Part shown: piece by piece, positions 4,141-46,228 of the stretch
Layout: each line of letters starts with the position of its first letter
Position numbering within the stretch: position 1 is the stretch's first letter
From: Craspedostauros australis
Taxonomy: Eukaryota > Bacillariophyta > Bacillariophyceae > Mastogloiales > Achnanthaceae
Reading direction: 5' to 3'
DNA: 64,000 nt
Assembly (NCBI GenBank): GCA_026770025.1
Contig: JAMXDE010000022.1
Coordinates: 682,001-746,000, forward strand
Notes under the pieces: model-generated
Seen by the model: the letters and a program-made list of their open reading frames with translations, nothing else
Database searches by the model: none
Told to the model about the DNA's origin: nothing
Program-made: the position numbers and the translations under genes

Positions 4141-5663
4141 TCATTCGAATGTTCTCGATGTGTCAAGGTACGACTTCTCATGTTCACGTTGCAAGTCAGC
4201 CTTGATGTTCTTGGTGAATCCGTCGCTTGTGTTTTGCTCGGATTTGACGAAAATGATTTCGATGGTTTTGTTGATTACCATGTTCCTCACGTAGTGATGG
4301 CGCACGTCGATGTGCCGCGATCGTTGGGATGTCGATGGGTTCTTGGCGATGAAGATCGCTCCGATGTTGTCCACACGACCTTAATCGGTGTCTTCACTGG
4401 GACGCCCACACTTTCGAGTAGCTGCACGACGAAGAAGATCTCCTTTGCCGCTTCGGAAAGGGCAACGTATTCTGCTTCGGATGAGCTGAGTGTGACGGCC
4501 TTCTGTGCCTTGGATCGCCAAAGGATTGGCACCTTGCACAGGTATAGGATGAATCCCCCTACGCTGATTCTCGTGTTCTTGTCTCCTGCATATTCGCTAT
4601 CGCAAAAGAGCTCCATGTCCCAGCCGTCGTCGTCTGGACGCGCTGGATGGATCTTCAATCCATAGTCCTTTGTATCGATCACATACTTGATGATCTGATA
4701 CATCTCCTTCATTGCGGCCTTGGTGGGCCTGATCAATACCTTGGAGAGTTCCCTCACAGGGTTCGCGATATCTGGTCGCGAGTGCTTGATGAGGAAGAGT
4801 AGCATACCGACGCCTCGGCGGTATTCGGCATGTTCTTCCGTTCCGACCTTCTGCAGTCCGTTATCTTCGGATGGTCGTACGATGATTTGACCCGGGGTTC
4901 CCGGTGTTGCGTAGCGCTGCATCTTCTCAACCTTGGTTCCGAACTCTTCGATGAGATGTCGGATGAGGTGTGGTTGACGCAATGTCGCTCTAGTCTTGTC
5001 ATGGTTCAGTTCGATGTTGCAGCTGAGGTAGTCTCCGAGTCCACGCTCGATTGTCACCTTGAACTTGCTGCCTTGGATGTCCTTCAGGAATGTCTCCAGT
5101 GCCTTGGAGTCTCCGCAGCAGAAGCAATCGTCCACGTAGATGGCCACGATCATGCTTCCTTCGTTCGTCTTCCTGTAGAACAGGCACGGGTCTGCCGCGC
5201 TCTGTTCGAAGTTGATATTCTTGAGGGTCGATACCAACATCTTGAACCATTGCCTGGCGCTCTGCACAAGTCCGTAGATTGGCTTGTGTAGGGTCAGGGC
5301 TTCGTCTGGTTGATGATCCATCCCGTTGGGACAGTTCATGTAGATCTCCTCGTCGAGGTCTCCGTGTAGGAATGCCGTTACGACATCGACGAGTGCGCAG
5401 TCCATCTTCTTGATCAGCATGATCACCATCATGACCCGATAGGTCACGTCATGGATGACGGGTGAGTAGTGCTCTTGGAAGTCCACTCCTGCGACTTGTG
5501 AATAGCCACATGCAACGAGCCGCGCTCGATGTGTGCCGTCACGCTTCAGCTTGAAGACCCATTTGCATTTGCAGCATCTGCGGCCGCGTGGGATGGCGTC
5601 TCGTTTGATCTTGCTGTACACTTTGCGTGTGTCCATGGAGTCGAACTCCTTCTTGATGGCTGC
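4141..5663 (-). pseudogene. Reverse transcriptase-RNase H of element B, separated by a stop and a frameshift
   Basis: This is the copia RT that continues the pol frame just after the TGA at 5664-5666. Motifs include CKCKWVFKLKRDG, ARLVACGYSQVAGVDFQEHY, the polymerase box IYVDDCFCCGD, and RNase H with ELFCDSEYAGD and SSSEAEYVALSEAAKE. Around 4377 the frame shifts by a 2-nt excess (GTGTG), and the last RNase H part (DNIGAIFIAKNP, RSRHIDVRHHYVR) is read in another frame to the stop at 4141. The RT active site is intact, so damage is limited to these two lesions. The TGA sits where a Trp codon is plausible. Confidence 0.9.
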
Positions 5664-8600
5664 TCAATATCCCTTTCGATGGATGGGATCTGGGTGATTG
5701 AAGGCTCCATCGAATGTTGTAGGTTCGATGTGCTTCTCTGGTTCTTTCTTCTCGTCCTGCATCGACAGTCCGATGTCGATCGCTGGTGATTCGGTAATGA
5801 TTGCATTCATTCCGTACAGTCCTGTTGTGCTATAGTGAGTGATCTCAATGTCTCCTTCATCTGCGATTTCTTCGTCATCTGTAGTTTCGTTGTTGAAGTC
5901 GTCGATCATTTCGTCGCTGAGTTCGTCACTCGCCTCATCAGATGATGGATCGCTCTCATAGCCTTCTTCCTTTCGACCTCGTTCGTTGAAGTCCGAGAGC
6001 TCACGTAGAGCTCTGGGAATACTCTTCCCTGTTGTTGATTTGGGATTAGTTTCTCCCTTCCTGCCTCGTGCTTCGTGACGTCGGATCCTCTCCTTTCTAG
6101 TTGTGTCACGTTTGCTTGGCTTGCTCGGTGGAGGTCTGGATGGTGTGCCATGTGTAGACTTCGCTGGTGTGTTCGGAGGAGTGACACTTGTGTCATCGTC
6201 GGCTTCGTCGCCGGATGGTAGGATCTCGTCATCCTCATGATTGGATTCGCTCCGATCTTCCTCGTCGTCTTGGACTAGTTGAGTTACTACGCCGTCGTCC
6301 TCATCATCCTCATCGTCGCTGTCCGATAGGATGTGGTACATGTTACTGTTAGCGAAAGATACTCTCTTTGCTTTCGATGTTTGACGCGTTGCCGTCTTTG
6401 GCATTGCTCCCTTCCGTCCAATGGTTGTGAAGCCGTCTGCGTCCGTTGTTTCTGCTCCGTTGGATATGTTCGGTGCTGATGCCCAGCCACGGAACTGTCC
6501 GTATGATTGGTTGAGCCACTTGATGTCGCGTGAGCAAATGAGTGACTTGGTTGATGGTCTGTACATGTTGTAGACCCCTGATGCATGTTGGTGTGCATAT
6601 CCGATGAATACCATCTCTTCTCCTCTATTCTTGAGTTTGGCGGTGATCCCGCCGTAGGTAGTCTTCACAACACCCACCTCTCCGAAAGTGCGGAGTGCAT
6701 CCGCATATGGTGGATCGCTTCCGAAGAATTGTCGATGTGGTGACTCCTTTTGATTCTTCGCTACGGTGATGTTGGCGATGGCGGTGGCAGTGCTAGCAGC
6801 TGCTGCCCACAGGCCATGCCTATATTCTTCGTCGAGCTGTGCTCCGTTGAGCATGGAGCGGATCTTGGTGTAGAGGTACGCGAACTTGCGTTCCACTCTG
6901 CCGTTCTGTTGCGGCGTGTTCGATGCCGTGAATTCGAATTTCATATTGAGTCCTGCATCGATGAGAATATCCTGCGTGGATTTGTTCTCTCCGCTGTTGT
7001 CACCTCGGAAGATGATCTGTTGGTCACCAGTCTGTGACTTGATCGTTTGGATGAATCGTTTGATGTACCCTGGTTGATCACTCTTGTTCTTGAGGAAGAA
7101 ACTCCAGCAGTGATCCGTGCAGTCGTCCACGATCAGGGTCCAGTAGCGTTTATCTCCGAAGCTTATGTGTTTAGTGTAACTAATGTCAATGAAGAACCGT
7201 TCGCCACGGCGAGTCGCTCTCGGAATGGTTGCCTTCGGAATGTTCTTCACTCTTGCGTTCGCGACCGCGCAGTCACGACATACCGGCATCTCGCCAATCA
7301 TCTTCCATCCGTATTGGGCGGCTGTCCGCTTCATGGCTTCGAGTGGCGCGTGGCCGAGCATTCGATGCAAGTTCACCGCGCTGATCTCCTTGGATGGGTT
7401 CTTGACGAGGGCTGTGCAAGCCTTGTCGTTGTTCGTTGGCATGATGGGATGCATCTGCACTCCCGTGATGAATCCGTTGGCTGTGGGGAAGACTCGGTCG
7501 AATACGATCTTCGTTCCGAATCCGTTGATGATGTCCATCAGAATGCCGTTGCTACCAAGCTGGTAACCGTTGTACAGAGCCTTGTTCGTAGAGAAAAGGT
7601 TCACCGCCATTTTCGGTGTGTACTTCACGTCATCGAGCCGGATGATGTGGCCAGTGTTGTCTCGCTGCTTGACCTTCAAGCGAATGGATCCCATCTTGGG
7701 AGAGTCCAGCTTCGTGCTGTCTCCCACTTGGACGAAGGACTTGATGTGCCGCACGTTGAAGAGAGCGGCGTCCGAGTTGATGATGTGACACGAAGCTCCG
7801 CTGTCGGCGAGCCAGGTGTCCTTGTTGACCTTGTCCTTGTGCTTGGTGCTCAGCTCGTGGAGCTGCTCCACGGCTGCTGTGGCCATTTCATCCATGAGGC
7901 CGTCTGCCTCTTCATCTTCATGCACTCCATCTTCGTTGTATGGATTGTGATTCTCGTCAGCTTCGTCGTCGCTTGGTAGTTCAGCGAAGCTCGCTGGGAC
8001 AGTGCTGTTACGATGAAATCCGGTGACCGTGTCATACGGTGTGACGCGTGGTCGTTCACGCAGGAGCACCTGCATGCATCCTCCGAGCACGTAGTGTAAG
8101 TCCAGCTCAGAGAGTTCCTCCTCTTCGTTTGCTTGCAGTAGTCGGTTGAGGATGGCTGCGTTTGCGAGGATCTCTTCAATCGATTTGAAGTTATCCGATA
8201 GGATGGTGCTTACCATGTTCACCCAAATGTATCGCAATGGTTCGTTCACGAACCCTGGGAACATCGGCAATGCAGCTGTTAGGACCGCGTCGTAGATGAG
8301 CTGCTTCTGCATTCGTTTTGCAGTGACCGTTGGTTCCGGGAAGGTCTGGAGTCGGTAGATGTCTTCGACTCTTCTGGGATTCGGCTCCGGTGGGAATTGG
8401 ATTCGAATTGGGTAGACGACGACCTCGTAGGGGTTGAATGCATCGTTCGTATGGTTCTCAGCTTCGTCGCTGTCCTCTTCATCGAAGATGCCCGTTCTCT
8501 CGTTTCGCATTGCTGCGGGAGGCGGCGCCTCGCCGCGGTTCGCCCCGTCACTGATGGTGTCGTCGTCGTCTTCATCTGCGCCATTGTCGTCGGCGTCTTC

Positions 8601-10040
8601 GTCTGCGCCGTTCTCGTCAGCGTCTTCGTCTGCGCCGTTCTCGTCAGCGTCTTCGTCTGCGCCGTTCTCGTTGGCGTCTTCGTCTGCGCCGTTCTCGTCA
8701 GCGTCTTCGTCTGCGCCGTTCTCGTCGGCGTCTTCGCTCATTGCCTCTTCGATGTCACTATCGATGGCCTCGCTGTCCATCTCGGCTCCGTCGCCGTATG
8801 AACCGATCAGGTTGTGCGCGTTGAAGCAGCATTCGTAGCTCACTTCGCGTCTTGGATCCACCTCGTGGATGATTGGCTCTTCGCTGAGCCACTCCGGGAC
8901 GATCTCATCGTCCTGCACTTCGTCGTCATTCCCGACGCATTCGAAGTTATCGAAGAAGGAGTCTTCAATGTAGTCGTCGGACACCAACATGCAGAGTGGC
9001 AAGTCCTTTGCCGAGAGCACCATCTCGTGCCCGCTCTTGTCGTGTCCTTCCGTAGCCGTGTTGGCTTGTTCGTTGTTGTTCTTGCTCTCGTTGAGCTTCT
9101 TCTTTCGGCACTCCGCCTCGCGGTGTCCGAAGATGCCACAGTAATTGCACTTGCCCTTGAAGCCGCTTCCCTTGTTGCGCTTTCCGTTCATCTTGTTGTT
9201 GTTGTTGTTGTTTTTCTTGTTGTTCGATTTCTTGCGTTCTGGGCAATCGGCGGATCTATGGCCATACACGCCACAGTTGTGACAAGTACCCTTGAAGTTA
9301 CCGGTGCTCGTGAAGCCGGTGTCGTTGCTCTTCGTGTTACTGTCTTGAAAGTCGTCGACGTATGCCTTGCCTCCTCTGTGAGTGGCGAATGCAGTACGGA
9401 GTACTCCTCTGATCGTGTTGATGGTAACCAGTTCCGGATTGAACGTGAGTTGGTGTTGGAAGTTCACGATGTGAGTTCTGTACTCGTTGCTCACCGTGCT
9501 GAGGATTTGCATGATCATTTCCTCGTCCGTGATCTCGTACTTGACATCGTGGAGACGTGATCGTAGACTCTCGAGTTGCGTGATGTAGATGTCGGGGTCC
9601 GTGTCTCTCTTCATCTTTTCGTTGTTGAATTGGCGCTTGAGCTTGATCTTCGTCACCGCATCGGATGGTCGGAACTTCTCCGCGAGAACTTTCCACGCTC
9701 CGTGTGCGTCTCCTTCGGGGTAGTCGTCGGAGATGCATTGGTTGATGTACTGGATGGCCTGCTTGCCTTTTCCTTTCTCTGCATCCATCATAAGGATCAG
9801 ATCGCTGAAGCAGTCGCATCCCAGCTCGTAGATCTCTTCCATCGCTTCCTTGGCTTCACCGTCGGCTGCCGCGATCTCGCTCACTGTTGGCACTTTGGTT
9901 TTGCCTAACATCACGTCTCTCGTCTTCTGTGCACGAGCGTATGCCTTCGCTTGGGACTCCCATGCGCTGTAGTCTTCCTGTTCACCGCTGAACATCGGCG
10001 CCTTGATGCGTCGCTTGTTCATGTTGGCTGATGTTGCCAT
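5664..10040 (-). CDS. gag-pol: Gag-protease-integrase polyprotein of element B (1458 aa)
   Basis: It starts at ATG 10040. In order: a UBN2-type Gag (residues about 15-230, FSGEQEDYSAWESQAKAY), two CCHC zinc knuckles (CHNCGVYGHRSADC and CNYCGIFGHREAEC, about 255-315), and then a spacer of about 440 residues unlike standard copia. The aspartic protease has WLADSGASCH (about 765). Integrase has the HRMLGH...C..C zinc region and the D-D-E signature (FIDISY, FRGDNSGEN, PQQNGRVERKF). A long acidic and basic linker toward RT ends at TGA 5664-5666. In copia elements these parts package RNA, mature the polyprotein and integrate cDNA. The spacer holds a near-perfect acidic repeat. Confidence 0.93.
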   Translation of the reverse strand: MATSANMNKRRIKAPMFSGEQEDYSAWESQAKAYARAQKTRDVMLGKTKVPTVSEIAAADGEAKEAMEEIYELGCDCFSDLILMMDAEKGKGKQAIQYINQCISDDYPEGDAHGAWKVLAEKFRPSDAVTKIKLKRQFNNEKMKRDTDPDIYITQLESLRSRLHDVKYEITDEEMIMQILSTVSNEYRTHIVNFQHQLTFNPELVTINTIRGVLRTAFATHRGGKAYVDDFQDSNTKSNDTGFTSTGNFKGTCHNCGVYGHRSADCPERKKSNNKKNNNNNNKMNGKRNKGSGFKGKCNYCGIFGHREAECRKKKLNESKNNNEQANTATEGHDKSGHEMVLSAKDLPLCMLVSDDYIEDSFFDNFECVGNDDEVQDDEIVPEWLSEEPIIHEVDPRREVSYECCFNAHNLIGSYGDGAEMDSEAIDSDIEEAMSEDADENGADEDADENGADEDANENGADEDADENGADEDADENGADEDADDNGADEDDDDTISDGANRGEAPPPAAMRNERTGIFDEEDSDEAENHTNDAFNPYEVVVYPIRIQFPPEPNPRRVEDIYRLQTFPEPTVTAKRMQKQLIYDAVLTAALPMFPGFVNEPLRYIWVNMVSTILSDNFKSIEEILANAAILNRLLQANEEEELSELDLHYVLGGCMQVLLRERPRVTPYDTVTGFHRNSTVPASFAELPSDDEADENHNPYNEDGVHEDEEADGLMDEMATAAVEQLHELSTKHKDKVNKDTWLADSGASCHIINSDAALFNVRHIKSFVQVGDSTKLDSPKMGSIRLKVKQRDNTGHIIRLDDVKYTPKMAVNLFSTNKALYNGYQLGSNGILMDIINGFGTKIVFDRVFPTANGFITGVQMHPIMPTNNDKACTALVKNPSKEISAVNLHRMLGHAPLEAMKRTAAQYGWKMIGEMPVCRDCAVANARVKNIPKATIPRATRRGERFFIDISYTKHISFGDKRYWTLIVDDCTDHCWSFFLKNKSDQPGYIKRFIQTIKSQTGDQQIIFRGDNSGENKSTQDILIDAGLNMKFEFTASNTPQQNGRVERKFAYLYTKIRSMLNGAQLDEEYRHGLWAAAASTATAIANITVAKNQKESPHRQFFGSDPPYADALRTFGEVGVVKTTYGGITAKLKNRGEEMVFIGYAHQHASGVYNMYRPSTKSLICSRDIKWLNQSYGQFRGWASAPNISNGAETTDADGFTTIGRKGAMPKTATRQTSKAKRVSFANSNMYHILSDSDDEDDEDDGVVTQLVQDDEEDRSESNHEDDEILPSGDEADDDTSVTPPNTPAKSTHGTPSRPPPSKPSKRDTTRKERIRRHEARGRKGETNPKSTTGKSIPRALRELSDFNERGRKEEGYESDPSSDEASDELSDEMIDDFNNETTDDEEIADEGDIEITHYSTTGLYGMNAIITESPAIDIGLSMQDEKKEPEKHIEPTTFDGAFNHPDPIHRKGY
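8577..8735 (-). repeat. 27-bp tandem repeat coding acidic nonapeptides in element B
   Basis: About six copies of a 27-bp unit (plus strand gcgccgttctcgtcagcgt and onward) encode repeats of the type ADEDADENG. Units differ by one or two bases only (for example GTTGG for GTCAG), so the array probably expands by slippage or unequal exchange. It lies in the non-canonical spacer between the zinc knuckles and the protease. Confidence 0.9.
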
Positions 10041-30660: not shown

Positions 30661-33456
30661 ATGGTCTTCATCCTCCCCCCACTCGTAGCGCTGCTCGCCT
30701 CGCCATTGCGCAACCACAACCATCAAGTCCGGACATCACTATCCACAGCCTCACCGTCTCTCATTCCGCTCAAGTCGACCCCTGGTGATGCATCCAACCC
30801 AACCATCACCGACCGGGATCTCCTACGCGCCGCAGAACGAGGTGACGTGGATACCCTCACCACATGGAAGACGACATTTCCACAAACCTCCATCGACTCG
30901 ATCAAGGATAACCGCGACAAGACTCCACTCCACCTCGCATGCTCCAACGGCCAGCTTGAAACGATCAAACAGTTGATGGAGTCATGCGGAGCGGACGCCA
31001 ATGCCCAATCCATGGATGGAGAGACTGCGCTACACTATGCATGCGCACAGGGAAACCTCGACGTCGTGGAATACCTGGCCAGGTCGCATGCTGCAAATGT
31101 CAACCTCCAGGATAACTGCGGCAAGGTGGCACTCCACGACGCATGTACCGAGGGACATGTGGCCATCGTGAAGACTCTGATCGAGTCATATTCTGCAAGC
31201 GCTCTCGTGCAAGATGAGAAGGGTGAGAATGCCCTCCATGCCGCGTGTCTTCATGGACACTTGGATGTTGTGGAGTACCTCGTTGGATCACATGGAGTGG
31301 AAATCAATGTGCAGGATGATTTCGGCAATACTGCGATCCACGATGCGTGTCTGAAGGGTCATCTTGATATCTTGAAGTACGTGATGGAGGCTAGTACTGT
31401 GGCCATCGACGTCCAGAACAATGATGACGATACCGCGCTTCATGTTGCTTACAGACATGGTCATCTGGATGTTGTGAGATGGTTGGTGGAGTCAGGTCAG
31501 GTGGACATCAATATCAAGGGTGAGAATGGCGACACTGCCCTTCACTGCGCAACCGCGCATGGCCATCTGGATGTTGTGAAGTGGCTGGTTGAATCCGGCA
31601 AAGCCAATATCAACGCTGAGAACGACAACCGTAAGACTCCAATCTTCAAGGCATATCACAACAATCACTTCGACATTGTCAAGTATCTGGTTGCCGCACC
31701 CAATGTCGATTTGAACGTAAAAGATCAGAGTGGCAACACCATCCTCGATCGCGCAAGCGCTGATGGTAATCTCGGCGTTGTGAAGTTGCTGGTTGAACAA
31801 GGCAAGGTAGATGTCAACATCAACACTGACAGGTCTGGCAACACTCCACTGCACGAAGCGTGCTTCAATGGCAGATTGGAGGTCGTGAAGTATTTGGTGG
31901 AAGTCTGCAACGCAAATGCCAACATCAAAACCAACAGGTCTGGCAACACTCCACTGCACCAAGCGTGCTTCAATGGCAGATTGGAGGTCGTGAAGTATTT
32001 GGTGGAATCGTGCAACGCAAATGTCAACATCCAAAGCAAGCATGGCAGAACTCCGCTGCACTACGCGTGCTTCAATGGCAGATTGGAGGTCGTGAAGTAT
32101 TTGGTGGAAGTCTGCAACGCAGAAATCGACATTCAAACCAAGTATGGCAACACTGCGATGCACCTTGCGAGCATTCATGGCAGATTGGAGGTCGTGAAGT
32201 ATTTGGTTGAACAAGGCAAGGTCAATATCGACATTCAAAACAAGTATGGCGACACTGCACTCCATCTCGCAAGTGGCAATGGACATCTGGATGTTGTGAA
32301 GTGGCTGATTGAATCCGGCAAAGCCAATATCAACGCTGAGAGCAACAATCGCGAGACTCCAATCTTCAAGGCATATCACAACAATCACTTCGACATTGTC
32401 AAGTATCTGATCGCAGCACCAAATGTCGATTTGAACGTGAAAAACCAGTTTGGCAACACCATCCTCAATCGCGCAAGCGCTGATGGTAATCTCGACGTTG
32501 TGAAGTTGTTAGTTGAACAAGGCAAGGTAGATGTCAACATCAACACTGACAGGTCTGGCAACACTGCACTGCACCAAGCGTGCTTCAATGGTAGATTGGA
32601 GGTCGTGAAGTATTTGGTGGAAGTCTGCAACGCAAATGTCAACATCCAAAGCAAGCATGGCAGAACTCCACTGCACCAAGCGTGCTTCAATGGCAGATTG
32701 GAGGTCGTGAAGTATTTGGTGGAATCGTGCAACGCAAATGCCAACATCAAAACCAAAAGGTCTGGCAACACTGCGATGCACCTTGCGAGCATTCGTGGCA
32801 CATTGGAGGTCGTGAAGTATTTGGTGGAATCGTGCAACGCAGAAATCGACATTCAAAACAAGTATGGCAACACTCCACTGCACCAAGCGTGCTTCAATGG
32901 CAAATTGGAGGTCGTGAGGTATTTGGTGGAAGTCTGCAACGCAAATGCCAACATCAAAACCAGCAGATATGGCAACACTCCACTGCACAGTGCATGCTTC
33001 AATGGCAAATTGGAGGTCGTGAAGTATTTGATGGAATCGTGCAACGCAAATGCCAACATCAAAACCAGCAGATATGGCAACACTCCACTGCACAAAGCGT
33101 GCTTCAATGGTAGATTGGAGGTCGTGAAGTATTTGGTGGAATCGTGCAACGCAGAAATCGACATTCAAAACAAGTATGGCAACACTCCACTGCACCAAGC
33201 GTGCTTCAGTGGCAAATTGGAGGTCGTGAAGTATTTGGTGGAAGTCTGCAACGCAGAAATCGACATTCAAGACTACTATGGCAGAACTCCGCTTTGGCGG
33301 GCAAGTTACTTTGGTCATTTGGAGGTGGTCAAGTACTTGGTGGGATCATGCAACGCAGACATCAGCATCAAGGGCGACAGTGGCTACACTGCACTGGATT
33401 TTGCAAAAAAACTGGGTCAGACTGATATTGTCAACTACTTGACCAATCTCACTTGA
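30661..33456 (+). CDS. Ankyrin-repeat protein, about 26 repeats (931 aa)
   Basis: A hydrophobic N-terminus (MVFILPPLVALLASPL) is followed by a linker and then consecutive ankyrin repeats from about residue 55 to the end. Repeat cores read NTPLHQACFNGRLEVVKYLVE. Units are 33-35 residues and many are nearly identical in DNA (99-105 bp period), so they arose by recent duplication. The N-terminal seven or so repeats are more diverged. No other domain is visible, so it is probably a scaffold or binding protein. The N-terminus could be a signal peptide, although basic residues and a long polar stretch follow. It is intronless and lies tail-to-tail with SIT (450 bp). Confidence 0.9.
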   Translation: MVFILPPLVALLASPLRNHNHQVRTSLSTASPSLIPLKSTPGDASNPTITDRDLLRAAERGDVDTLTTWKTTFPQTSIDSIKDNRDKTPLHLACSNGQLETIKQLMESCGADANAQSMDGETALHYACAQGNLDVVEYLARSHAANVNLQDNCGKVALHDACTEGHVAIVKTLIESYSASALVQDEKGENALHAACLHGHLDVVEYLVGSHGVEINVQDDFGNTAIHDACLKGHLDILKYVMEASTVAIDVQNNDDDTALHVAYRHGHLDVVRWLVESGQVDINIKGENGDTALHCATAHGHLDVVKWLVESGKANINAENDNRKTPIFKAYHNNHFDIVKYLVAAPNVDLNVKDQSGNTILDRASADGNLGVVKLLVEQGKVDVNINTDRSGNTPLHEACFNGRLEVVKYLVEVCNANANIKTNRSGNTPLHQACFNGRLEVVKYLVESCNANVNIQSKHGRTPLHYACFNGRLEVVKYLVEVCNAEIDIQTKYGNTAMHLASIHGRLEVVKYLVEQGKVNIDIQNKYGDTALHLASGNGHLDVVKWLIESGKANINAESNNRETPIFKAYHNNHFDIVKYLIAAPNVDLNVKNQFGNTILNRASADGNLDVVKLLVEQGKVDVNINTDRSGNTALHQACFNGRLEVVKYLVEVCNANVNIQSKHGRTPLHQACFNGRLEVVKYLVESCNANANIKTKRSGNTAMHLASIRGTLEVVKYLVESCNAEIDIQNKYGNTPLHQACFNGKLEVVRYLVEVCNANANIKTSRYGNTPLHSACFNGKLEVVKYLMESCNANANIKTSRYGNTPLHKACFNGRLEVVKYLVESCNAEIDIQNKYGNTPLHQACFSGKLEVVKYLVEVCNAEIDIQDYYGRTPLWRASYFGHLEVVKYLVGSCNADISIKGDSGYTALDFAKKLGQTDIVNYLTNLT
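31541..32640 (+). repeat. Segmental duplication within the ankyrin gene, offset exactly 720 bp
   Basis: 31541-31920 and 32261-32640 align base for base at a 720-bp offset with only scattered differences. Both include the distinctive repeats starting ESGKANINAE, then TPIFKAYHNNHFDIVKYL and NTDRSGNT. The 720-bp unit equals 240 codons, about seven ankyrin repeats, so a whole multi-repeat block was duplicated in frame. Confidence 0.85.
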
Positions 33457-33906: not shown

Positions 33907-35493
33907 TCACTTCTGCACACCCATCTCCTTGTCACTCTCGGCGGCACTGTCGTTCTCCTCCTCCTGGTTCAGCTTGTTCATGGCGGCAGTCTCCATGCGA
34001 AGAGCAGACTCGAAGACGACGGCATCCTCCTCGTTGCTGCACGAATTGATTTCCTCGCGGAGGCTCTTGATGTTCGACAGGATGCGCTCGCGACGGACGG
34101 AGTACGGCTCATTTTGTGCAGCGTGAGCCTTCTGGAGCTCGAGGTACTCGCGTGGGACGGCGGTGGAACCGGCCTCGTTGACAAGCAAGTTGGTTCCCAA
34201 ATGCAGGTTGCGGTTGCTCTTGTGGTCTGGCTTCATGCCGGCGGCGCGCTCCTCCGGGGTACCAATGTACACCTCATCGAGCTGGAAGCCAGAGACGGCC
34301 TTGTGGACGGAGGCAAGGACCCAGGCTCCGGAGCAGATACCAGTGGCTTCCAACAACAGACAGAACTGAAGAAAGATGTAGACGATCGGGTTGGAAAGGA
34401 GGGCGATTGGGAAGACGGATGCAACCAGCTGCCATGTGATGGAGGCGATGGTGGTGATGATGATGGTGGTGATGAGGGCTCCGAGAAGTCTGGTGTTGAA
34501 GAATTCCTGGGTGCTGTCGGAGACTCCGAAGATGTTCTCGCCAGTTCCGACCTCGACATCGAGCGTGGTGACATGGGCGATGATGAAGAAGCACATGGTC
34601 ACGCAGATCTGACGTCCGATCATGAATCCTGGAAGGTTGCGTCCGTCGCCGCCGAAGAGGAGCTCGCAGGTCTTGCGGGCCATTGGGTGGTCTCCACGCT
34701 CCTCCTTTGGAAGCTTGGCGACAGCGAAGAGGGCGATCTGCATACCCTCGAGCATATCCTCAAGCATACCGACGAGAGGGACGGCCATGGCGTAGCACAG
34801 GATGGCGAGGGAGACGAGGATACGGCCCCAGTAGAAGAGGTTCTGGGCACCGTCGCGTGGTGGTTCCTTCGACTCGATTTCCTTGCCGAAGGCCCAGACA
34901 AAGAACATCTGGACGAGGTAGCATGAATGCAGAAGTCCAGAGAACTCGATGGCGAGGGCGACATAGAGGGTGAAGATGGCGAAGAAGTTGTTGATGTAGT
35001 CAAACATGCAGAGGGAGGCGTTGACTTGGGAGTTGAGCTGTCCGGCCATGGCGGTCATGAGGATCATAGCGGCTCCGGATCCGAGGAAGATCTGGATGAT
35101 GATGTCTGGGAGTCCAAAGACTTCGGCATCGGCGAGCGGGGCACCGCACTGGTTGATGGTGAAGACCATGAGAAGGACCATGAACTGACGCCCCATGAGG
35201 TGGCGGTCGAGGTTGTCACCCTTGTGGGCGAGGGAGGTGCACCCGTGGCTGGTTGGGTGGGATTCTACATAGAGGTCGCGGTCGACTGGTGGGAGACCGA
35301 CGAGGGACCCCTGTCCTCCCTCCACCATGTTGAGCCAGACGAGGGCGGCGATCATGATGACGACGGCGACCACTGGGTGGACCTCGGACGAGACCTTGGT
35401 CTGCTCATTGAAGATGAGTCCGCAGACGATGGTGATCGAGAAGATGAGGAGTCCGGTAGAGTACACCGACTTGATGAGCTGAATGGGATCCAT
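33907..35493 (-). CDS. SIT: Silicic acid transporter (SIT), 528 aa
   Basis: The protein takes up orthosilicic acid across the plasma membrane for diatom cell-wall silica, coupled to sodium in the family. All four hallmark motifs are present and correctly paired: EGGQ (58-61) in VEGGQGSLVGLPPVDRDLY, GRQ (101-103), EGMQ (249-252) and GRQ (293-295) in GGDGRNLPGFMIGRQ. About ten hydrophobic segments run from residue 10 to about 430. A hydrophilic, heptad-like tail (EYLELQKAHAAQNEP, RRERILSNIKSLREEI) matches the coiled-coil C-terminus of SITs. Length is normal. The start is set at MDPIQL (35493); the frame extends to an upstream ATG (35709) but that stretch is His/Thr/Pro-rich without family resemblance. 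No intron. Confidence 0.95.
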   Translation of the reverse strand: MDPIQLIKSVYSTGLLIFSITIVCGLIFNEQTKVSSEVHPVVAVVIMIAALVWLNMVEGGQGSLVGLPPVDRDLYVESHPTSHGCTSLAHKGDNLDRHLMGRQFMVLLMVFTINQCGAPLADAEVFGLPDIIIQIFLGSGAAMILMTAMAGQLNSQVNASLCMFDYINNFFAIFTLYVALAIEFSGLLHSCYLVQMFFVWAFGKEIESKEPPRDGAQNLFYWGRILVSLAILCYAMAVPLVGMLEDMLEGMQIALFAVAKLPKEERGDHPMARKTCELLFGGDGRNLPGFMIGRQICVTMCFFIIAHVTTLDVEVGTGENIFGVSDSTQEFFNTRLLGALITTIIITTIASITWQLVASVFPIALLSNPIVYIFLQFCLLLEATGICSGAWVLASVHKAVSGFQLDEVYIGTPEERAAGMKPDHKSNRNLHLGTNLLVNEAGSTAVPREYLELQKAHAAQNEPYSVRRERILSNIKSLREEINSCSNEEDAVVFESALRMETAAMNKLNQEEENDSAAESDKEMGVQK

Positions 35494-36050
35494 CTTGTTT
35501 GTGGTGGTTGTTGGGTTGCTTGTTGATACTCTGGTTGTTGCTGCGATGTGTTGCAGAAGTGGTAATGGTTGAAATTGTGAGTGATGCAAAGTCGGGTTCG
35601 ATGAATGCCGTGGAGGCATGTGTGGTTGTGCGTGATCGTATGCAGTTGTACATAACGCGTTGCTTTCGAAAATGACGGATGTGACACAATCACATGGAGA
35701 CGCGCACATGTTGTGCAGAAAGCGAGTTGTGAGTGTGGATTTGACATCAAGCTAGAGAGTAGACTGCTCAACGCCCTGCGAACACAAGATGATGTTTGTA
35801 GAGTGGTCGATTGTGTATTGTATTCTTTGTTGTATTCTATTCTATTGCGTGTATTCTATTGTATTCTATGTTCTATGGTGTATGGGGTGCTGTATGGTTG
35901 TTGTGCATATGATTGCTGTATTGATGTTGGTGCTCGGTCGTGATGAGATTCACTTCCTTGCGTGAAAAATTGGGTGTGGAGATGTGCGAGAGTGTGCACG
36001 AGGATGCGCGAGGATTCACAACAAGCCTCGTGGTGCTGCAGCGCATTTGT
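35494..36050. other. SIT upstream region with TATTC pentamer tract
   Basis: 557 bp between the SIT start and the 3' end of the disrupted gene. It contains a degenerate (TATTC)n tract at about 35816-35880. It must hold the SIT promoter; no known element can be named. Confidence 0.5.
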
Positions 36051-36488
36051 TTATGCCATGACGCTGTCATCCGAAGACTGAAGACGAGCCATGAAGAGGT
36101 CAGTCATGCGGTTGCCGCCCTGAAGCTTCGCAGACTTCACAATGCTTGACACATCCTTGTCCCAGATCTCCTCGTATGACTTGATCAGTCCGGACACTGG
36201 GCAGCGCTTCATGACGACGGTTCCGCTCAGGAAGCACTTGGGCGAGAATGGACCGCGGAATGTCAAGTCCTCCTCGAAGCGGAAGGTCACGGCATGCTTG
36301 GTCACCGAAAGGGTGTCCTCGATGAGTCGCGACTCGCATTCAGCTGCGTCAAAGAGCATGCGGCAGCCGCGGACCCATTGCTCACGGTAGTACTTGCCGT
36401 CGAGGTCGGATCCGTCCTTGAAGGTGGCCTGCTCATCGTAGATGGATTTGGTGACATCGGCGGTGACGAGCGACTTCTTGTTGACGAT

Positions 36489-36494
36489 GTCGCT
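36489..36494. repeat. Target-site duplication of element C, left copy (GTCGCT)
   Basis: GTCGCT abuts the left LTR at 36495 and recurs at 42395-42400. It encodes Ser-Asp of the host gene on the minus strand. Confidence 0.92.
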
Positions 36495-37158
36495 TGTTGA
36501 AACAGGTCTCAATCCTGTTGCTCATGTAGACCGGGTGGGGCTACAATTGGTTCACTAAGTTAGTTGTTCTGTTATCCCGGGTTTGTAGGTTGGTGATTCC
36601 TCTTTCTCTGCGATTTATGAGCTCGACTTGTCTGTCAAAAGTCAACTCATGTCAATCTCCAGTTGCCCTGCAAACTCGTGTAGTTCTGACTCCTATTGAG
36701 TCAGATCATTTCCTAATTCCTAACGATCCACCGTGATGTGAATCCTCGACCTGCGCCAGTTTCCCGCAGTTCGTCGTGTTGTTGTCTTATTTGGTCTTGG
36801 TTGTGTCAGACAGAGGTTCAGGAACTCGATTGCGTCAGTCTCTAATCCTGACGTCTTACCTAAGTGATTCCTCTCATCCATATATATCTGGTCTTGCTCC
36901 TCTGCTGACGTTCATGCTCTGCTCCTCACGTTCCCGCTGACGTTAGATTCCTCTCGATCGGTAGATTATTTGTTTCTGAAGATTCCGAGATTCTTTCGTC
37001 ATATTCGAGGATTCTGCTGTGAATTTTCCGTTTTCGGGTTTGGAACATTTGATCGTGAGAAGGAGTTCTGGACAAACAAATATGTGTGAGCAGTCATTTG
37101 CGCAACTGTGACCCCTACCGGGTCATACACGAATCTGAATATTCGTCATGTTCCAACA
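36495..37158 (-). repeat. 3' LTR of element C (664 bp)
   Basis: TGTTGAAACA...TTCCAACA. Identical by eye to 41731-42394. It contains TGACG-type motifs (for example GACGTTAG, CTGACGTTCATG) that could bind bZIP factors; this is inference. Confidence 0.97.
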
Positions 37159-37210
37159 CTCTCCCTGTTTGTGCAGAACCTCTCCTTTCATCTCAAAATG
37201 ACGTCGATTG

Positions 37211-40200
37211 TCACTTCAACCCTCCTTGTCTGATGGATGGCACCAGCCTCTCATGAATGCTCTCCTTCACATTCTTGGTCATGGGATCCGCGAAGTTCAT
37301 CTCGGATGGTGTGAACTTCATGGTCATCTCTCCTCCCTGTACCATTTCCTTGATGAAGTGATATGCCACATCGATGTGCTTGGTGCGTAGTCCAACCTGC
37401 TGGTTCTTGGTCAAGAAGATTGCTCCAGTGTTGTCGCCATGTAGAGTGATCTGCGTGTTGGTTCCAGTCATCTCATCCAGCAGCATCTTGGCGAACTTGC
37501 ATTCGGTTGCGCAGTTTGCCATCGACACGTACTCCGCCTCTGTGCTCGAGAGTGTCACCGATCGCTGTGTCTTGGACTGCCAGCTCACAAGACACCCTCC
37601 GACCGTCACGATGTTGCCTGAGACGCTGCGACGATGATCCTTGTTCGTTGCGTAATCCGAATCGCACCATGCTTCGATCTCCAGCCTGCGCGGCTTCCTG
37701 AGCTTGATGGCATAGCTGTCCTCCTTCGCAATCTCAGCCTTGATGTATCCGATCAGTCTCGCCATCGCCTTCCAGTGTTCCTTGGTTGGATGCTCCAGAT
37801 GTGATGCAAGTTCTCTGACAGCGTTGGCACACTCTGGTCCCACTTTCTTCATCATCCAGAGAAGCTTGCCAACGATGGATCGGTATCCAGCTCGATTGTC
37901 CACTTCATCATCTTCGGTCGCCTTCACCAGGGTAGTTGATGGGTATCCTGGGGTCTCAAAGAGTCTGATGTTCGATCCGTAGTGCTGTTCGAATTCCTTG
38001 ATCATCTGCTCCACGAAGTCGTCCATGGTGACCACCAGGCACTTGCCATCTGCATCAGTCATCCTCTTGTACCATACTCCCAGATGTTTGGTGAGCTCTC
38101 CAAGGTCCGTGATGTTGAACTTGCGTGCGATCTCTTCCTTGATCCATTCGACTGTGACTGGGTCTCCTCCGATAGCAGCATCGTCGACATACACGATCAC
38201 CAGTGCTGTGACTTGCCCGCTCGACTTGTACACGAACAAGCATGGATCTGCCAGACTCTTGGTGAATCCAATGTCCACCAGTGCTGCTGTGAAAGTCTTC
38301 ATCCATGCTCTGGGTGCTTGAACCGTTCCATACACCGCCTTCAGCAGTTTTGCAACATGCTTGTGACGATATTCCGGATCTGCCCTTCCGTCAAAGTCTC
38401 CGTCCACGAATCCTTCTGGGATCTCGATGTACACCTCTTCTTCAATCTCTGCGTTCAGGAATGCTGCCTCCACATCCAGGGCTTCGATCACCCATCCAGT
38501 GTTGGCCAGGCACACCGCCAGCATTGTTCGAATTGTGGTATCACTTGCGACCGGGGAGAATGACTCTGTGAAGTCCACTCCAGGGATCTGTTCGTATCCC
38601 TTCACCACCAGCCTCGCTTTGTACCGTGTTGACCCATCCTGTTCGGACTTCTTCACGAATATCCAGCGAGACTTGAGTGCAGTGCGTCCTCGTCCCATGC
38701 TGCCTCGATCAATGACTTGGAGACAGTCGCGCTTCTGGAAGTTGTGAACCTCCTTTTCAGCTGCTCCCTTCCACTTGTCACCATCTGGCCTGCTCAGAGC
38801 GTCCTTGAGCGTCTTTGGCAGCCCTGGATCAGAAGTAAGGGAAGCGTTAAAAACCATCAACACTCTCCCGGATCTGGTGTTTGGCCTTCCATCATTCCGG
38901 CCTTGCACCTCGTAGGATCTCCAGGTCTGTAGTTTCGCTCGCTCTCTCTCCATCTTGGATGACCCTCTCCCAGCTTGCGGAACTGCCAGACGAGTTGGAT
39001 GTCTCTCACGTTGGTTCGCAGGTGTCACATGCCGTTCATTCGCCTGATGCACATCCACCATCTCGAAGTCATCCATGCCCTCATTTCCATCCGAATCAGA
39101 GACAAGCCCAGGATCCACAACGATTCCGTTGATATCGTCCCGGACATGGTCGGTTGGGTCCGCCATCACACCGCTCTCATCGTCCGAAATGACATGAGGA
39201 AGTTCATCGATGCTGACCATCTTTGGAATCTTGGTGGTTGCCGCTCTCTCCCCAGTGGACGGAGTCATCATCAGTGGAACATCCGCGTCGACCACAGGCT
39301 TCTCATCTGGGACTGCGGCTGCGGTTGCTGCTGGTGTTGGATTGGATGCAGGCTCAGGTTGTGCAATGATCTCCACACCATCCACGACCCCTGCTCCATG
39401 CCACTCCATCCAGTTCAGGTCTCTGGACATCACCACCTTGTTGGTATCGACCTTCAGCATCCGATAGGTATCGCCTGCATGGTTGTCAGCATAGCCCAGC
39501 ATCACCGTTTTGAATGCTTTCGGTGTAAGCTTCGGCTTCTTGGCGCGATCCGTTACGTATCCGACGCGTCCCCATTCCATCAGATGCGGATAGAGCTTGG
39601 GATTCTGGCCGTAGAAGGTTTCATCTGGACTTTTGTCGTTGCCTGTCGTGACCGTCAGGTTATGGAGCCGGGTTGCCGTGTGGATTGCCTCCGCCCAAAG
39701 CCGTCCTTGTGCCTCATCAGTGAGATCAGCATCCAACATGAGCGCCAATGCCGAATCTCGAATCGTCACGAATCCTCTCTCGACAACACCATTCATCATT
39801 GGTGTGTTGGGGGCGGTGTACTCCAGTTGGATTCCATGCTCGTCACAGACCTTCTCCAGCTTCCCTTGGTTCTCACCAGCATTGTCACACCGAATGGCCT
39901 CCACCTTCAGGTCTGCACCTTTGAGTTTGGTGAGTAGAGTCTCCACCTGTCCTGCAAGCTGGCTCTTGTTCGTCAGGAAGTAACTCCACTTCTTCTTGGA
40001 AACCTCATCCACGATCAACAGCCAGTAGTTGCTTCCTTTGGCCGTCTTCTTGTATGGACCAGAGATGTCCAGGTATAGGCGTTGAGCGATGTGGGTAGCT
40101 TTCTCAAATGCCTTCTTCCTCACTCCCTTCGCCTTTGCTTTTGCCTTTGCACATGCCTCACATGCTCTCCAAGTCCCAGTGAGTGACCAGCCTGCCTTTG

Positions 40201-41659
40201 CTGCTGTCAGCTTGGTGTAGCGCTCGTTTGGATGCCCCAGGATGCGATGAGCTCGATTGACATCCATGGTGCTCTTCCTCTCCACAGTTCCCGTGGCCAT
40301 GATGGATTCCGTTGGCTTCCCCTTTGACTTGCATTTGAGGAAGTACAGGTTGCCGTCTCCATTGTCATCTTCATGTTGGAACTTCAGACTGATGTCGGTG
40401 CTTGGATGTTTCAAAGTGATATCATCCTTGCCTCCACTGAGCGTGCATCCCTTCTCCAGGAATTGGGGAATACTGATGATGTTGTGTGCAAATCCTGGGA
40501 CCACGAAGACTGACTTCAAGATGAACTCGGTACCGTCCAGGCACTCTCCATGGAATTCCCCCACATGGGTTGGTGTCACCATGTTGCGGTCTCCCACCTG
40601 CACCTGTCTGTCATCGGTGACCGCCACCAGATCTGTGATCCCTTCGGTTGACCAGGTCACATGGCATGTAGCTCCGGTGTCAGCCAGCCACTTGTTCTTG
40701 TCTCCAGCCTGCCTGCCATCTGTCCCAGTTACATGAGATATCGCTGCCATACCAACGAACATTCCAGAGTGGGTGTTCCCAGATCCTCCTGCTTGTCCGC
40801 CCTGTCCGTTCTTCTCCGGACAATCCTTGGCCTTGTGCCCTTGCTTCTTGCATCTGTAGCACTTGATTCGTTGGAGGTAGTCATTGTTGTTGGTTGGTGG
40901 CTTGGTGCACTCCGCTGCCTTGTGTCCGTATTCTCCACACTTGCGACACGTGCCCTTGAACCCGCTCTGATACCCCTTCGTCATGGTGTTGAAGGCCTTG
41001 TTGGTTGAAGTCGACGCAGTGCTCCCATCCTCACTCGTCCTCACCTTCCTCTTCCAGAATCGGATCAGGGACTTCTTCAGCGACTCCCACTTGAGGTCTC
41101 CATCATTCAGCTCTCTATCCAGTGTAGTCTTCACCTCGCTGTAGATCTCCTCCGGTAGGTTCACCATCACATGCGCAATGCAGTCGTCATCCGTCTTCTC
41201 CACGCCGAAATCCTTCAGCTCCTTCACAATCTTGTTGATTCTCATCATCCACTGGCTTGGATCCTCTTCCGGAGTCTGCAGTGTACACATGGTGAACTCG
41301 TTGAGCTTCGTCACCTTGTCTGCCTTGTCCCGCGGTGCATACCTGTCCTGAAGTGCCTTCAACGCTGCCACAGCATCACCCTTGGGTTGGTGATCTGTCT
41401 TGCACTCCCTCACGATGCTTCTCGCCAGCCCCTCAGTGCTGAGCATCAGTGTGCTGTATGCTGCCTTGTTCATCCGCTCAGCCTTCTTCTCTGCTTCGCT
41501 CTTGGCTGCCTGATCATGCCTTGGTACCGTGACTGTCTCGTCCAACACCTCATCGTACCCCTTGCACGCAGCGAGAGCCATGAAGACGTCCAACCACTCG
41601 TCAAAGTCCTCGCCATCGAACTTGACGATCTTCACCGACTTGACCCCGTCTTCATCCAT
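37211..41659 (-). CDS. gag-pol: Complete Gag-Pol polyprotein of element C (1482 aa)
   Basis: One frame covers every copia function. Gag is of UBN2 type. Two CCHC knuckles (CRKCGEYGHKAAEC, CYRCKKQGHKAKDC) come next, then the protease WLADTGATCH. Integrase shows HRILGH, CEACAKAKAKAKG, LYLDISGPY, IRCDNAGEN and PMMNGVVERGF. RT has FVKKSEQDGSTRYKARLVVKG and the polymerase box IVYVDDAAIGG. RNase H has EAWCDSDYATN, LSSTEAEYVSMANC and LHGDNTGAIFL, and the tail RTKHIDVAYHFIKEMVQ is present. All catalytic residues look present and there is no stop or frameshift. The leader to the 5' LTR is short (about 70 bp). Confidence 0.97.
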   Translation of the reverse strand: MDEDGVKSVKIVKFDGEDFDEWLDVFMALAACKGYDEVLDETVTVPRHDQAAKSEAEKKAERMNKAAYSTLMLSTEGLARSIVRECKTDHQPKGDAVAALKALQDRYAPRDKADKVTKLNEFTMCTLQTPEEDPSQWMMRINKIVKELKDFGVEKTDDDCIAHVMVNLPEEIYSEVKTTLDRELNDGDLKWESLKKSLIRFWKRKVRTSEDGSTASTSTNKAFNTMTKGYQSGFKGTCRKCGEYGHKAAECTKPPTNNNDYLQRIKCYRCKKQGHKAKDCPEKNGQGGQAGGSGNTHSGMFVGMAAISHVTGTDGRQAGDKNKWLADTGATCHVTWSTEGITDLVAVTDDRQVQVGDRNMVTPTHVGEFHGECLDGTEFILKSVFVVPGFAHNIISIPQFLEKGCTLSGGKDDITLKHPSTDISLKFQHEDDNGDGNLYFLKCKSKGKPTESIMATGTVERKSTMDVNRAHRILGHPNERYTKLTAAKAGWSLTGTWRACEACAKAKAKAKGVRKKAFEKATHIAQRLYLDISGPYKKTAKGSNYWLLIVDEVSKKKWSYFLTNKSQLAGQVETLLTKLKGADLKVEAIRCDNAGENQGKLEKVCDEHGIQLEYTAPNTPMMNGVVERGFVTIRDSALALMLDADLTDEAQGRLWAEAIHTATRLHNLTVTTGNDKSPDETFYGQNPKLYPHLMEWGRVGYVTDRAKKPKLTPKAFKTVMLGYADNHAGDTYRMLKVDTNKVVMSRDLNWMEWHGAGVVDGVEIIAQPEPASNPTPAATAAAVPDEKPVVDADVPLMMTPSTGERAATTKIPKMVSIDELPHVISDDESGVMADPTDHVRDDINGIVVDPGLVSDSDGNEGMDDFEMVDVHQANERHVTPANQRERHPTRLAVPQAGRGSSKMERERAKLQTWRSYEVQGRNDGRPNTRSGRVLMVFNASLTSDPGLPKTLKDALSRPDGDKWKGAAEKEVHNFQKRDCLQVIDRGSMGRGRTALKSRWIFVKKSEQDGSTRYKARLVVKGYEQIPGVDFTESFSPVASDTTIRTMLAVCLANTGWVIEALDVEAAFLNAEIEEEVYIEIPEGFVDGDFDGRADPEYRHKHVAKLLKAVYGTVQAPRAWMKTFTAALVDIGFTKSLADPCLFVYKSSGQVTALVIVYVDDAAIGGDPVTVEWIKEEIARKFNITDLGELTKHLGVWYKRMTDADGKCLVVTMDDFVEQMIKEFEQHYGSNIRLFETPGYPSTTLVKATEDDEVDNRAGYRSIVGKLLWMMKKVGPECANAVRELASHLEHPTKEHWKAMARLIGYIKAEIAKEDSYAIKLRKPRRLEIEAWCDSDYATNKDHRRSVSGNIVTVGGCLVSWQSKTQRSVTLSSTEAEYVSMANCATECKFAKMLLDEMTGTNTQITLHGDNTGAIFLTKNQQVGLRTKHIDVAYHFIKEMVQGGEMTMKFTPSEMNFADPMTKNVKESIHERLVPSIRQGGLK

Positions 41660-41715
41660 CTTGTCGTTGTTCTTCAGCCCTGATGGCCCAACTTCGTGTG
41701 TCTGAGTGTCTCAAG

Positions 41716-41733
41716 ACACGTTTTAAAACGTGT
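41716..41733. promoter_or_regulatory. Perfect 18-bp palindrome at the primer-binding-site position of element C
   Basis: ACACGTTTTAAAACGTGT spans the inner edge of the 5' LTR (LTR starts 41731). The core CGTTTTAAAACG (41719-41730) is flush with the LTR, exactly like CGTTTATAAACG in element B. No TGG for pairing with a tRNA 3' CCA is present. Confidence 0.6.
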
Positions 41734-42394
41734 TGAAACAGGTCTCAATCCTGTTGCTCATGTAGACCGGGTGGGGCTACAATTGGTTCACTAAGTTAGT
41801 TGTTCTGTTATCCCGGGTTTGTAGGTTGGTGATTCCTCTTTCTCTGCGATTTATGAGCTCGACTTGTCTGTCAAAAGTCAACTCATGTCAATCTCCAGTT
41901 GCCCTGCAAACTCGTGTAGTTCTGACTCCTATTGAGTCAGATCATTTCCTAATTCCTAACGATCCACCGTGATGTGAATCCTCGACCTGCGCCAGTTTCC
42001 CGCAGTTCGTCGTGTTGTTGTCTTATTTGGTCTTGGTTGTGTCAGACAGAGGTTCAGGAACTCGATTGCGTCAGTCTCTAATCCTGACGTCTTACCTAAG
42101 TGATTCCTCTCATCCATATATATCTGGTCTTGCTCCTCTGCTGACGTTCATGCTCTGCTCCTCACGTTCCCGCTGACGTTAGATTCCTCTCGATCGGTAG
42201 ATTATTTGTTTCTGAAGATTCCGAGATTCTTTCGTCATATTCGAGGATTCTGCTGTGAATTTTCCGTTTTCGGGTTTGGAACATTTGATCGTGAGAAGGA
42301 GTTCTGGACAAACAAATATGTGTGAGCAGTCATTTGCGCAACTGTGACCCCTACCGGGTCATACACGAATCTGAATATTCGTCATGTTCCAACA
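41731..42394 (-). repeat. 5' LTR of element C (664 bp)
   Basis: Same sequence as the left LTR with no difference seen. It should carry the element promoter reading leftward. Confidence 0.97.
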
Positions 42395-42400
42395 GTCGCT
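42395..42400. repeat. Target-site duplication of element C, right copy (GTCGCT)
   Basis: Second copy of GTCGCT, immediately outside the right LTR and within the host coding sequence. Confidence 0.92.
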
Positions 42401-42844
42401 GATGATGATCTGTGCCAGTTGCTCGTCTGACAGGTTGAGCTGCTTCTGTTCCGTTGTGCATGTGGCGGCGACGGCCAATGCAGCCATGGAATGCATCCAT
42501 GCACGTCGGGATGTCGACGTTGATGGCAGGGATGGTGTGGCGTCAGCGTTGGCGGCAGTGCTCCAGAGAGGATCGGCAGGTGTGGCTGCATCCTGGAATG
42601 ATTGCTGTGGCACGTTGGATGCGATGGCTTGTCTGGCGTTCTGAAGGAATGCGAAACGGGATGCCGATGGTTGCTCGGACTCGAACATGGTGGCGAAGAG
42701 CTGGGTGTTGGTTGATGCTGGCTGTCTTGTGGTGAATGCCTGTGCTTGGTTGTTGGCGCATGGTGCTGCGAGGACGAGGAGTCCAAGGAAAAGGGAGAGC
42801 TTGACGCTGGATGTGGTTGGCTTGTTGTTGCTGTTGCTGTTCAT

Positions 42845-44880: not shown

Positions 44881-46228
44881 ATGACAGCATACAACAACAC
44901 GACGACACTCATCACACTCACGCTGCTGTGTCTGTGCAACTCAATCACAAACTGCCAAGCGTGGGTGACACACAACACACCATCGGCGTCAACAACATCA
45001 ACCACACACACACGACAAGGACCGCCGCCAGCCGCCACGGCAACTCACATCAATCCACAGCAAACGCACGTCCTCGTTCTCCCAGGCTTCGCAACCGCAG
45101 CCAGCGACTACGTCGATGACCTTGTTCCCAACATCGCACAGCAAGCCATCGACGCTGGATGGTGGAGCAACGACAACAACAACAGCAACAACAACAGCAA
45201 CGATGACGACATGACCAACGCAATGGATCACATCCACGTCCTGCCACTCCAGCGACATGATTGGGCACAGACCATTGCATTCGGCATATGCGATCTCGAC
45301 TTCATGACCTTCAAGGCACCAGCAACCAACTGGGCGTACCGATGGTACCTTCAGAAGGTGGCCAAGGAGGTGAAGAGAATCCAGGATGTCGCCAAGGAGG
45401 AAGGCACGACCGCCAAGATCATCCTGGTGGGACACTCCGCCGGTGGCTGGCTCGCAAGGTGAGTTTGGCGCCGCTTTACTCCTGTACGACTGATATTGTG
45501 CGACTGCTACTGTGCGTGCTTCAGGGCTCTGCTCTACTCTGCTCTTCTCTACTCCATTCATTTCACTCACACTATCAACACTCGCGTTCTCCCTCCACAC
45601 ATCATGCATCATCACATTCATCATTCGCCTCCTTCCAACCAACAGAGCCGCTGTCGGATACGGAATGGATGACACCAACGGCAAGGATCTGCAGATTGAC
45701 ATCGACAGCATTCTGGGAATCGTCACGCTCGGGTCTCCCCACATCCCATGCCCCAAGGGCTCCGTCGACATCACCGGCGGTGCACTCCGTATCGTTCACG
45801 ACACCTTCCCAGGTGCCTTCTTCAACGACCGTCTCTTCTACGTGTCTGCTGCCGGATCTGCATTGAATGTCGAGCAGCAGCAAGCGCACATCCCTTCCCC
45901 AAACACCATCACCTCACAGCCAGATGCTGATCACATGCTTGCGTACCAATCGTACAAGTTGCTGTCCGGTCAAGGACACCAGGACGGCGATGGCATCGTC
46001 CCTGTCCCGCTTGCGCACCTGGAGGGTTCCAATCTTCAGATCACCTTGGACAACGTGTACCACACCTCCATGCTGCAGAATCAGCATCAGCATCAACATG
46101 AGCACGATCAACACACATCTCCCACATCCGAAGCCTCGGAATCGAGATGGTACGGATCGAAGGAGATCGTCCAACAATGGTTCAGTCCTGTTCTGCACAA
46201 GGTGCTGCCAGCGATGATGGTTCAGTAG
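44881..46228 (+). CDS. Alpha/beta hydrolase, lipase-like, two exons (386 aa), secreted or plastid
   Basis: Exon 1 is 44881-45458 and exon 2 is 45646-46228. The 187-bp intron (AAG|GTGAGT...AACAG|A) joins in frame right after the nucleophile elbow. The signal peptide (LITLTLLCLCNSITNCQA) ends at A27|W28; an aromatic residue at +1 fits diatom plastid import, though secretion is possible. The oxyanion region VLVLPGFATAASDY and the elbow VGHSAGG (S186) show an alpha/beta hydrolase similar to PGAP1/lipase-like proteins. A candidate Asp is in GQGHQDGDGIVPVP, and a His lies near VYHTSML. A poly-Asn run (NNNSNNNSNDDD) and a His/Gln run are low-complexity inserts. The substrate, probably a lipid ester, is not shown. 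Confidence 0.85.

Follow-up and report, generated by a model that had tools for sequence, protein, structure and literature searches.

The window analysed here, 64,000 nt of the diatom Craspedostauros australis (contig JAMXDE010000022.1, positions 682,001 to 746,000), contains a gene for a predicted plastid protein whose coding sequence is interrupted between codons 150 and 151 by a complete Ty1/copia long terminal repeat (LTR) retrotransposon (Table 1). The reading favoured here, and held with high confidence, is that the gene belongs to a multicopy family, one member of which was hit by a recently active retrotransposon, likely at small cost. It draws on the structure of the element, on the exact duplication of its target, and on uninterrupted copies of the same gene elsewhere in the assembly.

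Table 1. Coordinates, within the window, of the element, the gene it splits and the neighbouring genes.
Feature	Position	Strand	Remarks
Ty1/copia LTR retrotransposon, complete	36495..42394	-	5,900 bp; co-oriented with split gene
5' LTR (element sense)	41731..42394	-	664 bp; 664/664 identical to other LTR
3' LTR (element sense)	36495..37158	-	664 bp
gag-pol frame	37211..41659	-	open, 1,482 amino acids (aa)
Target site duplication GTCGCT, copy 1	42395..42400	.	exactly 6 bp
Target site duplication GTCGCT, copy 2	36489..36494	.	exactly 6 bp
Split gene, 5' part	42395..42844	-	codons 1-150: leader, twin-Arg segment, first mature-domain residues
Split gene, 3' part	36051..36488	-	codons 151-295 and stop: most of NTF2-like domain
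Silicon transporter (SIT) frame, downstream of split gene	33907..35709	-	PF03842, E=2e-212
Alpha/beta-hydrolase gene	44881..46228	+	GHSAGGW; two exons; head to head with split gene

The element, its target and the empty site

The two direct LTRs have TG...CA termini, reading TGTTGAAAC...GTTCCAACA on the + strand, and the bases immediately beyond them are not alike. Outside them the target is repeated as AGCGAC on the gene strand; a 5-bp duplication was considered and rejected, since the five bases touching the LTRs differ (TCGCT vs. GTCGC). LTRs of this form and a target duplication of a few bp are both typical of Ty1/copia elements, as is the order of domains in the gag-pol frame: gag, protease, integrase, reverse transcriptase of the RVT_2 type, and RNase H. 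Retrotran_gag_2, zf-CCHC, Pol_BBD, SH3_retrovirus and RVT_2 (E=1.8e-48) scored above the Pfam cut-offs, and rve, rve_3 and gag_pre-integrs below them; gag lies at residues 35-206, the zinc knuckle at 265-282, rve (below cut-off) at 530-620, and RVT_2 at 990-1224, with the CCHC zinc knuckle matched in two stretches. The protease (DTGA) and RNase H, neither of which has a Pfam match, were recognised by their motifs on visual inspection of the translation. A purine-rich stretch, ACAGGGAGAG, directly adjoins the 3' LTR. The interval 36051..42844 is bounded by the ends of the split gene, not of the element.

When a script removed the element together with one of the two AGCGAC repeats, codons 1-150 and 151-295 joined in frame and continued to the original stop, giving a protein of 295 aa. 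A search of the assembly (74.8 Mb, 90 contigs) with this protein found 16 further near-identical copies, and all 16 are uninterrupted, with AGCGAC occurring once in the 66 bases round the junction. Because the empty site is documented 16 times by paralogues, no second strain is needed to interpret the insertion; their shared junction sequence, with its single AGCGAC, puts the observation beyond chance. The possibility that the two halves are separate genes was rejected, as every one of the 16 near-identical copies in the same genome spans both. An initial annotation of this stretch, made from its letters, had described a very young copia insertion at codon 150/151, two gene halves in one frame that rejoin at AGCGAC, and a full 1482-aa element frame; the identical LTRs, the exact duplication, the single AGCGAC of the paralogues and the open frame with its copia domains bear out all of this.

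Mechanistically, AGCGAC would have been duplicated during repair of a cut, staggered by 6 bp, that the integrase had made after codon 150. Staggered cutting of this kind is known enzymology for the copia family, and the duplication is visible in the sequence itself.

Relatives and age of the element

A search of the genome for the LTR returned 72 candidates, of which 40 were scored, making the element copy number a lower bound; 17 further element pairs and four single LTRs were examined from this search. Sixteen of the pairs are complete relatives, each with an exact 6-bp duplication and with LTRs that are identical (14 of 16) or differ by one mismatch (2 of 16). The four single LTRs all have 6-bp duplications as well. 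The length of the duplication was accordingly dismissed as a special feature of the window insertion, being the rule throughout this element family. The window LTR is closest to a copy at C1:2249015 (no differences to its right LTR, one to its left) and to the LTRs of the seventeenth relative, on C19 (one difference); from the other 15 complete elements it is separated by 4 to 8 substitutions, with at most three gap positions. These differences among elements indicate that several lines of one family moved recently.

The mutation rate of Phaeodactylum tricornutum is 4.77e-10 per site per generation. At this rate, zero differences in the window LTR pair correspond to an upper 95% bound of ~4.7 million generations, and the two mismatches over 17 complete LTR pairs (that of the window plus 16) to a mean near 0.19 million generations. 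Judged by its sequences, then, the element family is recently active.

Diatom Ty1/copia-like elements, from P. tricornutum and Thalassiosira pseudonana, are reported to have LTRs of 153-844 bp and total lengths of 5,182-8,062 bp (PMC2806351). With these CoDi-group elements the window element shares the ranges of LTR and element length, the TG/CA ends and the high LTR identity (PMC2806351); CoDi6.2-6.5 are described there as having tandem CCHC fingers (PMC2806351), to be compared with the two CCHC stretches found here. The same paper gives the Blackbeard and Surcouf insertions as heterozygous in P. tricornutum (PMC2806351), and by likeness to these it is plausible that the window insertion is heterozygous too. 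Neither an allelic empty site nor a second copy of the window locus was seen in the assembly, which may be collapsed; the whole right flank matches elsewhere at best 89%.

The split gene, its copies and its predicted protein

The insertion is the only lesion of the split gene, which has no stop or frameshift. Its protein begins with a plastid-type leader with an A36|F37 site, followed by twin arginines at 113-114, as the initial annotation had noted. An alignment of 13 relatives, three of them divergent and 10 drawn from the 16 near-identical copies, shows A36, R113 and R114 without variation and F37 replaced by Leu in one; the RR is also present in a 47%-identical paralogue (L075). The protein has the arrangement of a thylakoid-lumen twin-arginine substrate, in which RR and then a hydrophobic stretch come after the plastid leader (A|F). 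Import of the family product would probably lead first into the plastid and then, by way of the twin-Arg segment, into the thylakoid lumen, where its mature domain would act.

For that domain, structure prediction supports an NTF2-like identity, which had been a guess in the initial annotation. The best model of the trimmed mature domain has a predicted local distance difference test score (pLDDT) of 72.5 (50-56 for the other four models) and a predicted template modelling score of 0.69, and shows the alpha-alpha-beta-alpha-beta-beta-beta-beta cone fold of NTF2-like proteins. Used as a Foldseek query, it gave 225 matches at E<=0.001, with AclR, ketosteroid isomerases, SnoaL-type and NTF2-like proteins, presumably all of one superfamily, heading the best 50. 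Sequence identity to this superfamily (ketosteroid isomerase, SnoaL, limonene epoxide hydrolase) is 8-15% across the 50 aligned rows listed. An earlier model that included the twin-Arg segment was poor (pLDDT 48) and produced no Foldseek match at E<=0.001, its best rows being ketosteroid isomerases at ~0.002-0.01.

Searches by sequence gave no such assignment. Pfam returned no family for the joined protein, for L075 or for another copy, L017 (E<=10), and for L036 two weak matches to other families alone (E 0.056 and 0.15); a PDB sequence profile search returned 0 matches, leaving the protein outside the curated NTF2-like sequence families. No confirmed relative of the mature domain was found among bacterial and archaeal genome contigs and viral contigs. 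Both “NTF2-like” and “plastid” also appear in papers on the diatom iota carbonic anhydrases (PMC8395977, PMC6776030); here there is no Pfam match.

The 16 further copies have 97-99% protein identity (96.6-98.6% by tblastn), are stop-free, and are matched over the full length or from the fourth residue on; all are open to a shared stop, 294-296 codons from the window's aligned start. Two of them (L028 and L029) have another residue where the window protein has its first Met, and a Met of their own two codons further on. More distant copies lie on C3, C13, C14, and C2, and C2 also has the 47% paralogue. Over the 136 pairs that can be formed from the 17 copies, mean synonymous divergence (dS) is 0.073 and mean nonsynonymous divergence (dN) 0.0117, a dN/dS of ~0.16. 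This is unevenly distributed: in comparisons among the other copies, codons 1-150 give dN 0.022 vs. dS 0.064 and codons 151-295 dN 0.0018 vs. dS 0.081 (dN/dS ~0.02). By these measures, the gene family is under strong purifying selection. For the window copy compared with the others, codons 151-295 give dN 0.0009 vs. dS 0.096, so the downstream half is not yet decaying, as expected for a young insertion.

The longest product of the broken copy would be a 161-aa frame (42359-42844), ending a few codons into the LTR. Since this would be without nearly all of the NTF2-like domain, the copy is presumably null. With 16 unbroken copies remaining, the cost is likely to be small, and redundancy may let the insertion persist.

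Several observations concern the placement and integrity of the copies. Six of the 17 lie less than 30 kb from a contig end where 1.2 would be expected (binomial 0.0009), with the limit of 30 kb set after the copy places had been seen and with two of the six, on C9 and C44, being 99.9% identical over 9 kb. This pair (L021, G000:C9:8600-17600; L022, G000:C44:6800-15900), in opposite orientation near contig starts, may be either a recent duplication or an uncollapsed haplotype. C10 has three copies at a spacing of 14,814 bp (L023-L025, G000:C10:620000-658600). A divergent copy on C14 (L035, G000:C14:734900-743900) has an independent insert of ~1,038 bp at codon 254 (about 4827-5864), with AGTC on either side by eye. 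On C46 (L082, L017), 5 bp separate the start codon of a gene copy from an upstream 5.3-kb stretch (G000:C46:131971-137264), which has inverted ends of 53 bp that are 98% alike and parts the gene from the hydrolase.

The surrounding cassette and alternative explanations

The genes on either side of the split gene recur with it: a cassette of alpha/beta-hydrolase, NTF2-like gene and lesioned SIT is found repeatedly in the genome. In the window, the hydrolase matches PGAP1-like PF07819 (E=7.4e-8 on the joined exons, with an intron at 45459-45645 placed from splice signals). Its exon 1 is found at 15 of 21 loci (window included; one, L020, has a stop) and its exon 2 at 15 of 21, stop-free and in one case cut by the end of the stretch examined. 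No hydrolase match was found in the stretches examined at L017, L018, and L033-L036; in L017 it is displaced by an insertion. A SIT lies within 8 kb of 15 of 21 gene copies (the window and four divergent ones included). The window right flank is 85-92% identical to the other cassettes over long stretches, with single 200-bp bins reaching 99%.

The window SIT has a likely start Met at residue 73, 25 aa fewer than an intact copy, and a 4-aa insertion; its whole frame is matched at no other SIT locus, the partial matches being short pieces with at most 94% protein identity. The intact 549-aa copy (L083) has a frame that none of the 16 cassette SITs compared retains in full. The 16 include those of the window and of the divergent L034, and some are near-identical pairs and so not independent; L019, L027, L033, L035, and L036 were unmatched. 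Three have open frames with internal deletions (window, 25 aa; L018, 7 aa; L029, 13 aa), and the remainder are interrupted by stops or frame breaks or lack parts. Outside the cassettes, a second SIT (L084) aligns at 97% over the 549 positions, with a single 1-aa gap. Genome-wide, the SIT family is very large, and its 128 matches fall into 55 loci, of which 41 cover >90% of the core, in a count that mixes loci and fragments, with intactness checked in two only. Other work puts SIT copies at 2-3 to >30 (PMC13403384), typically 3-5 (PMC10700740), and describes a tandem SIT expansion in Nitzschia putrida (PMC9054022). The C. australis SITs resemble such expanded families in having many loci in one genome; they differ in that some of the 55 stand in a cassette with an NTF2-like gene, where those compared are lesioned.

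The initial annotation proposed that the event may remove a thylakoid protein. The loss of an important single protein, or dependence of the strain on the other allele, would fit the plastid-type leader, the conserved twin-Arg and a coding frame that is truly split, but is largely refuted by the 16 unbroken copies, at 97-99% protein identity and under purifying selection; we consider it very improbable. Of that earlier interpretation there remain the young insertion, the leader, the twin-Arg segment and the predicted NTF2-like domain. It is about as improbable that the junction is an artefact of assembly, with a collapsed retrotransposon joined to a paralogue. Many near-identical elements and paralogues can indeed mislead assemblers, but the target duplication is exact at the site, the flanks on the two sides are parts of a single cassette, arranged as expected, and overall the right-hand one is unlike every other cassette, despite the 99% in single bins. 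The window LTRs likewise differ from those of 15 of the 16 complete elements by at least 4 substitutions, with at most one to the copy at C1:2249015 and one to C19.

A less remote alternative, if still an unlikely one, is that the window locus was an already dying duplicate and the copia element only its latest lesion. The 25-aa internal deletion in the adjoining SIT points this way, as do mobile-element insertions at other members (the 1,038-bp one in the C14 copy, the 5.3-kb one upstream of the C46 copy). One argument against it is that the split gene itself is clean besides the insertion, with a dN of 0.0009 over codons 151-295; another is that SIT lesions occur in 16 of 16 cassette loci compared, and therefore do not mark out the window locus. 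The preferred reading, recent integration into one of many redundant copies, has its own weak points: the C19 relative has a right LTR cut at 510 of 664 bp and no matching duplication; the plastid or lumen location is purely a reading of motifs; and the copies might differ in expression, the window copy then being more important than its sequence suggests.

It seems conceivable, as a tentative and somewhat doubtful extension of this reading, that the family was amplified to ~17 copies for dosage, and forms a safe harbour absorbing mobile-element hits while the carried-along downstream SIT decays. By itself, the insertion is a clean case, open to dating, of a copia burst now under way in a diatom, by an ordinary mechanism. 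The context is perhaps weightier: a plastid-type family without a Pfam match, in at least 17 copies (the broken one included) and with an almost invariant mature domain, in the same genome as some forty SIT loci. It is a testable question why the cell should keep a presumed lumen protein in copies so numerous and so nearly identical.

Two further features of the window lie outside the cassette. Between 3325 and 10828, a 300-nt sequence occurs in two identical copies, 7,204 bp apart, which enclose gag-pol-like frames (5664-10040 and 4287-5636), and this is probably a second LTR element. At 30661-33456, a 931-aa frame has repeats that look ankyrin-like by eye, with DNA repeats spaced ~102-105 bp.

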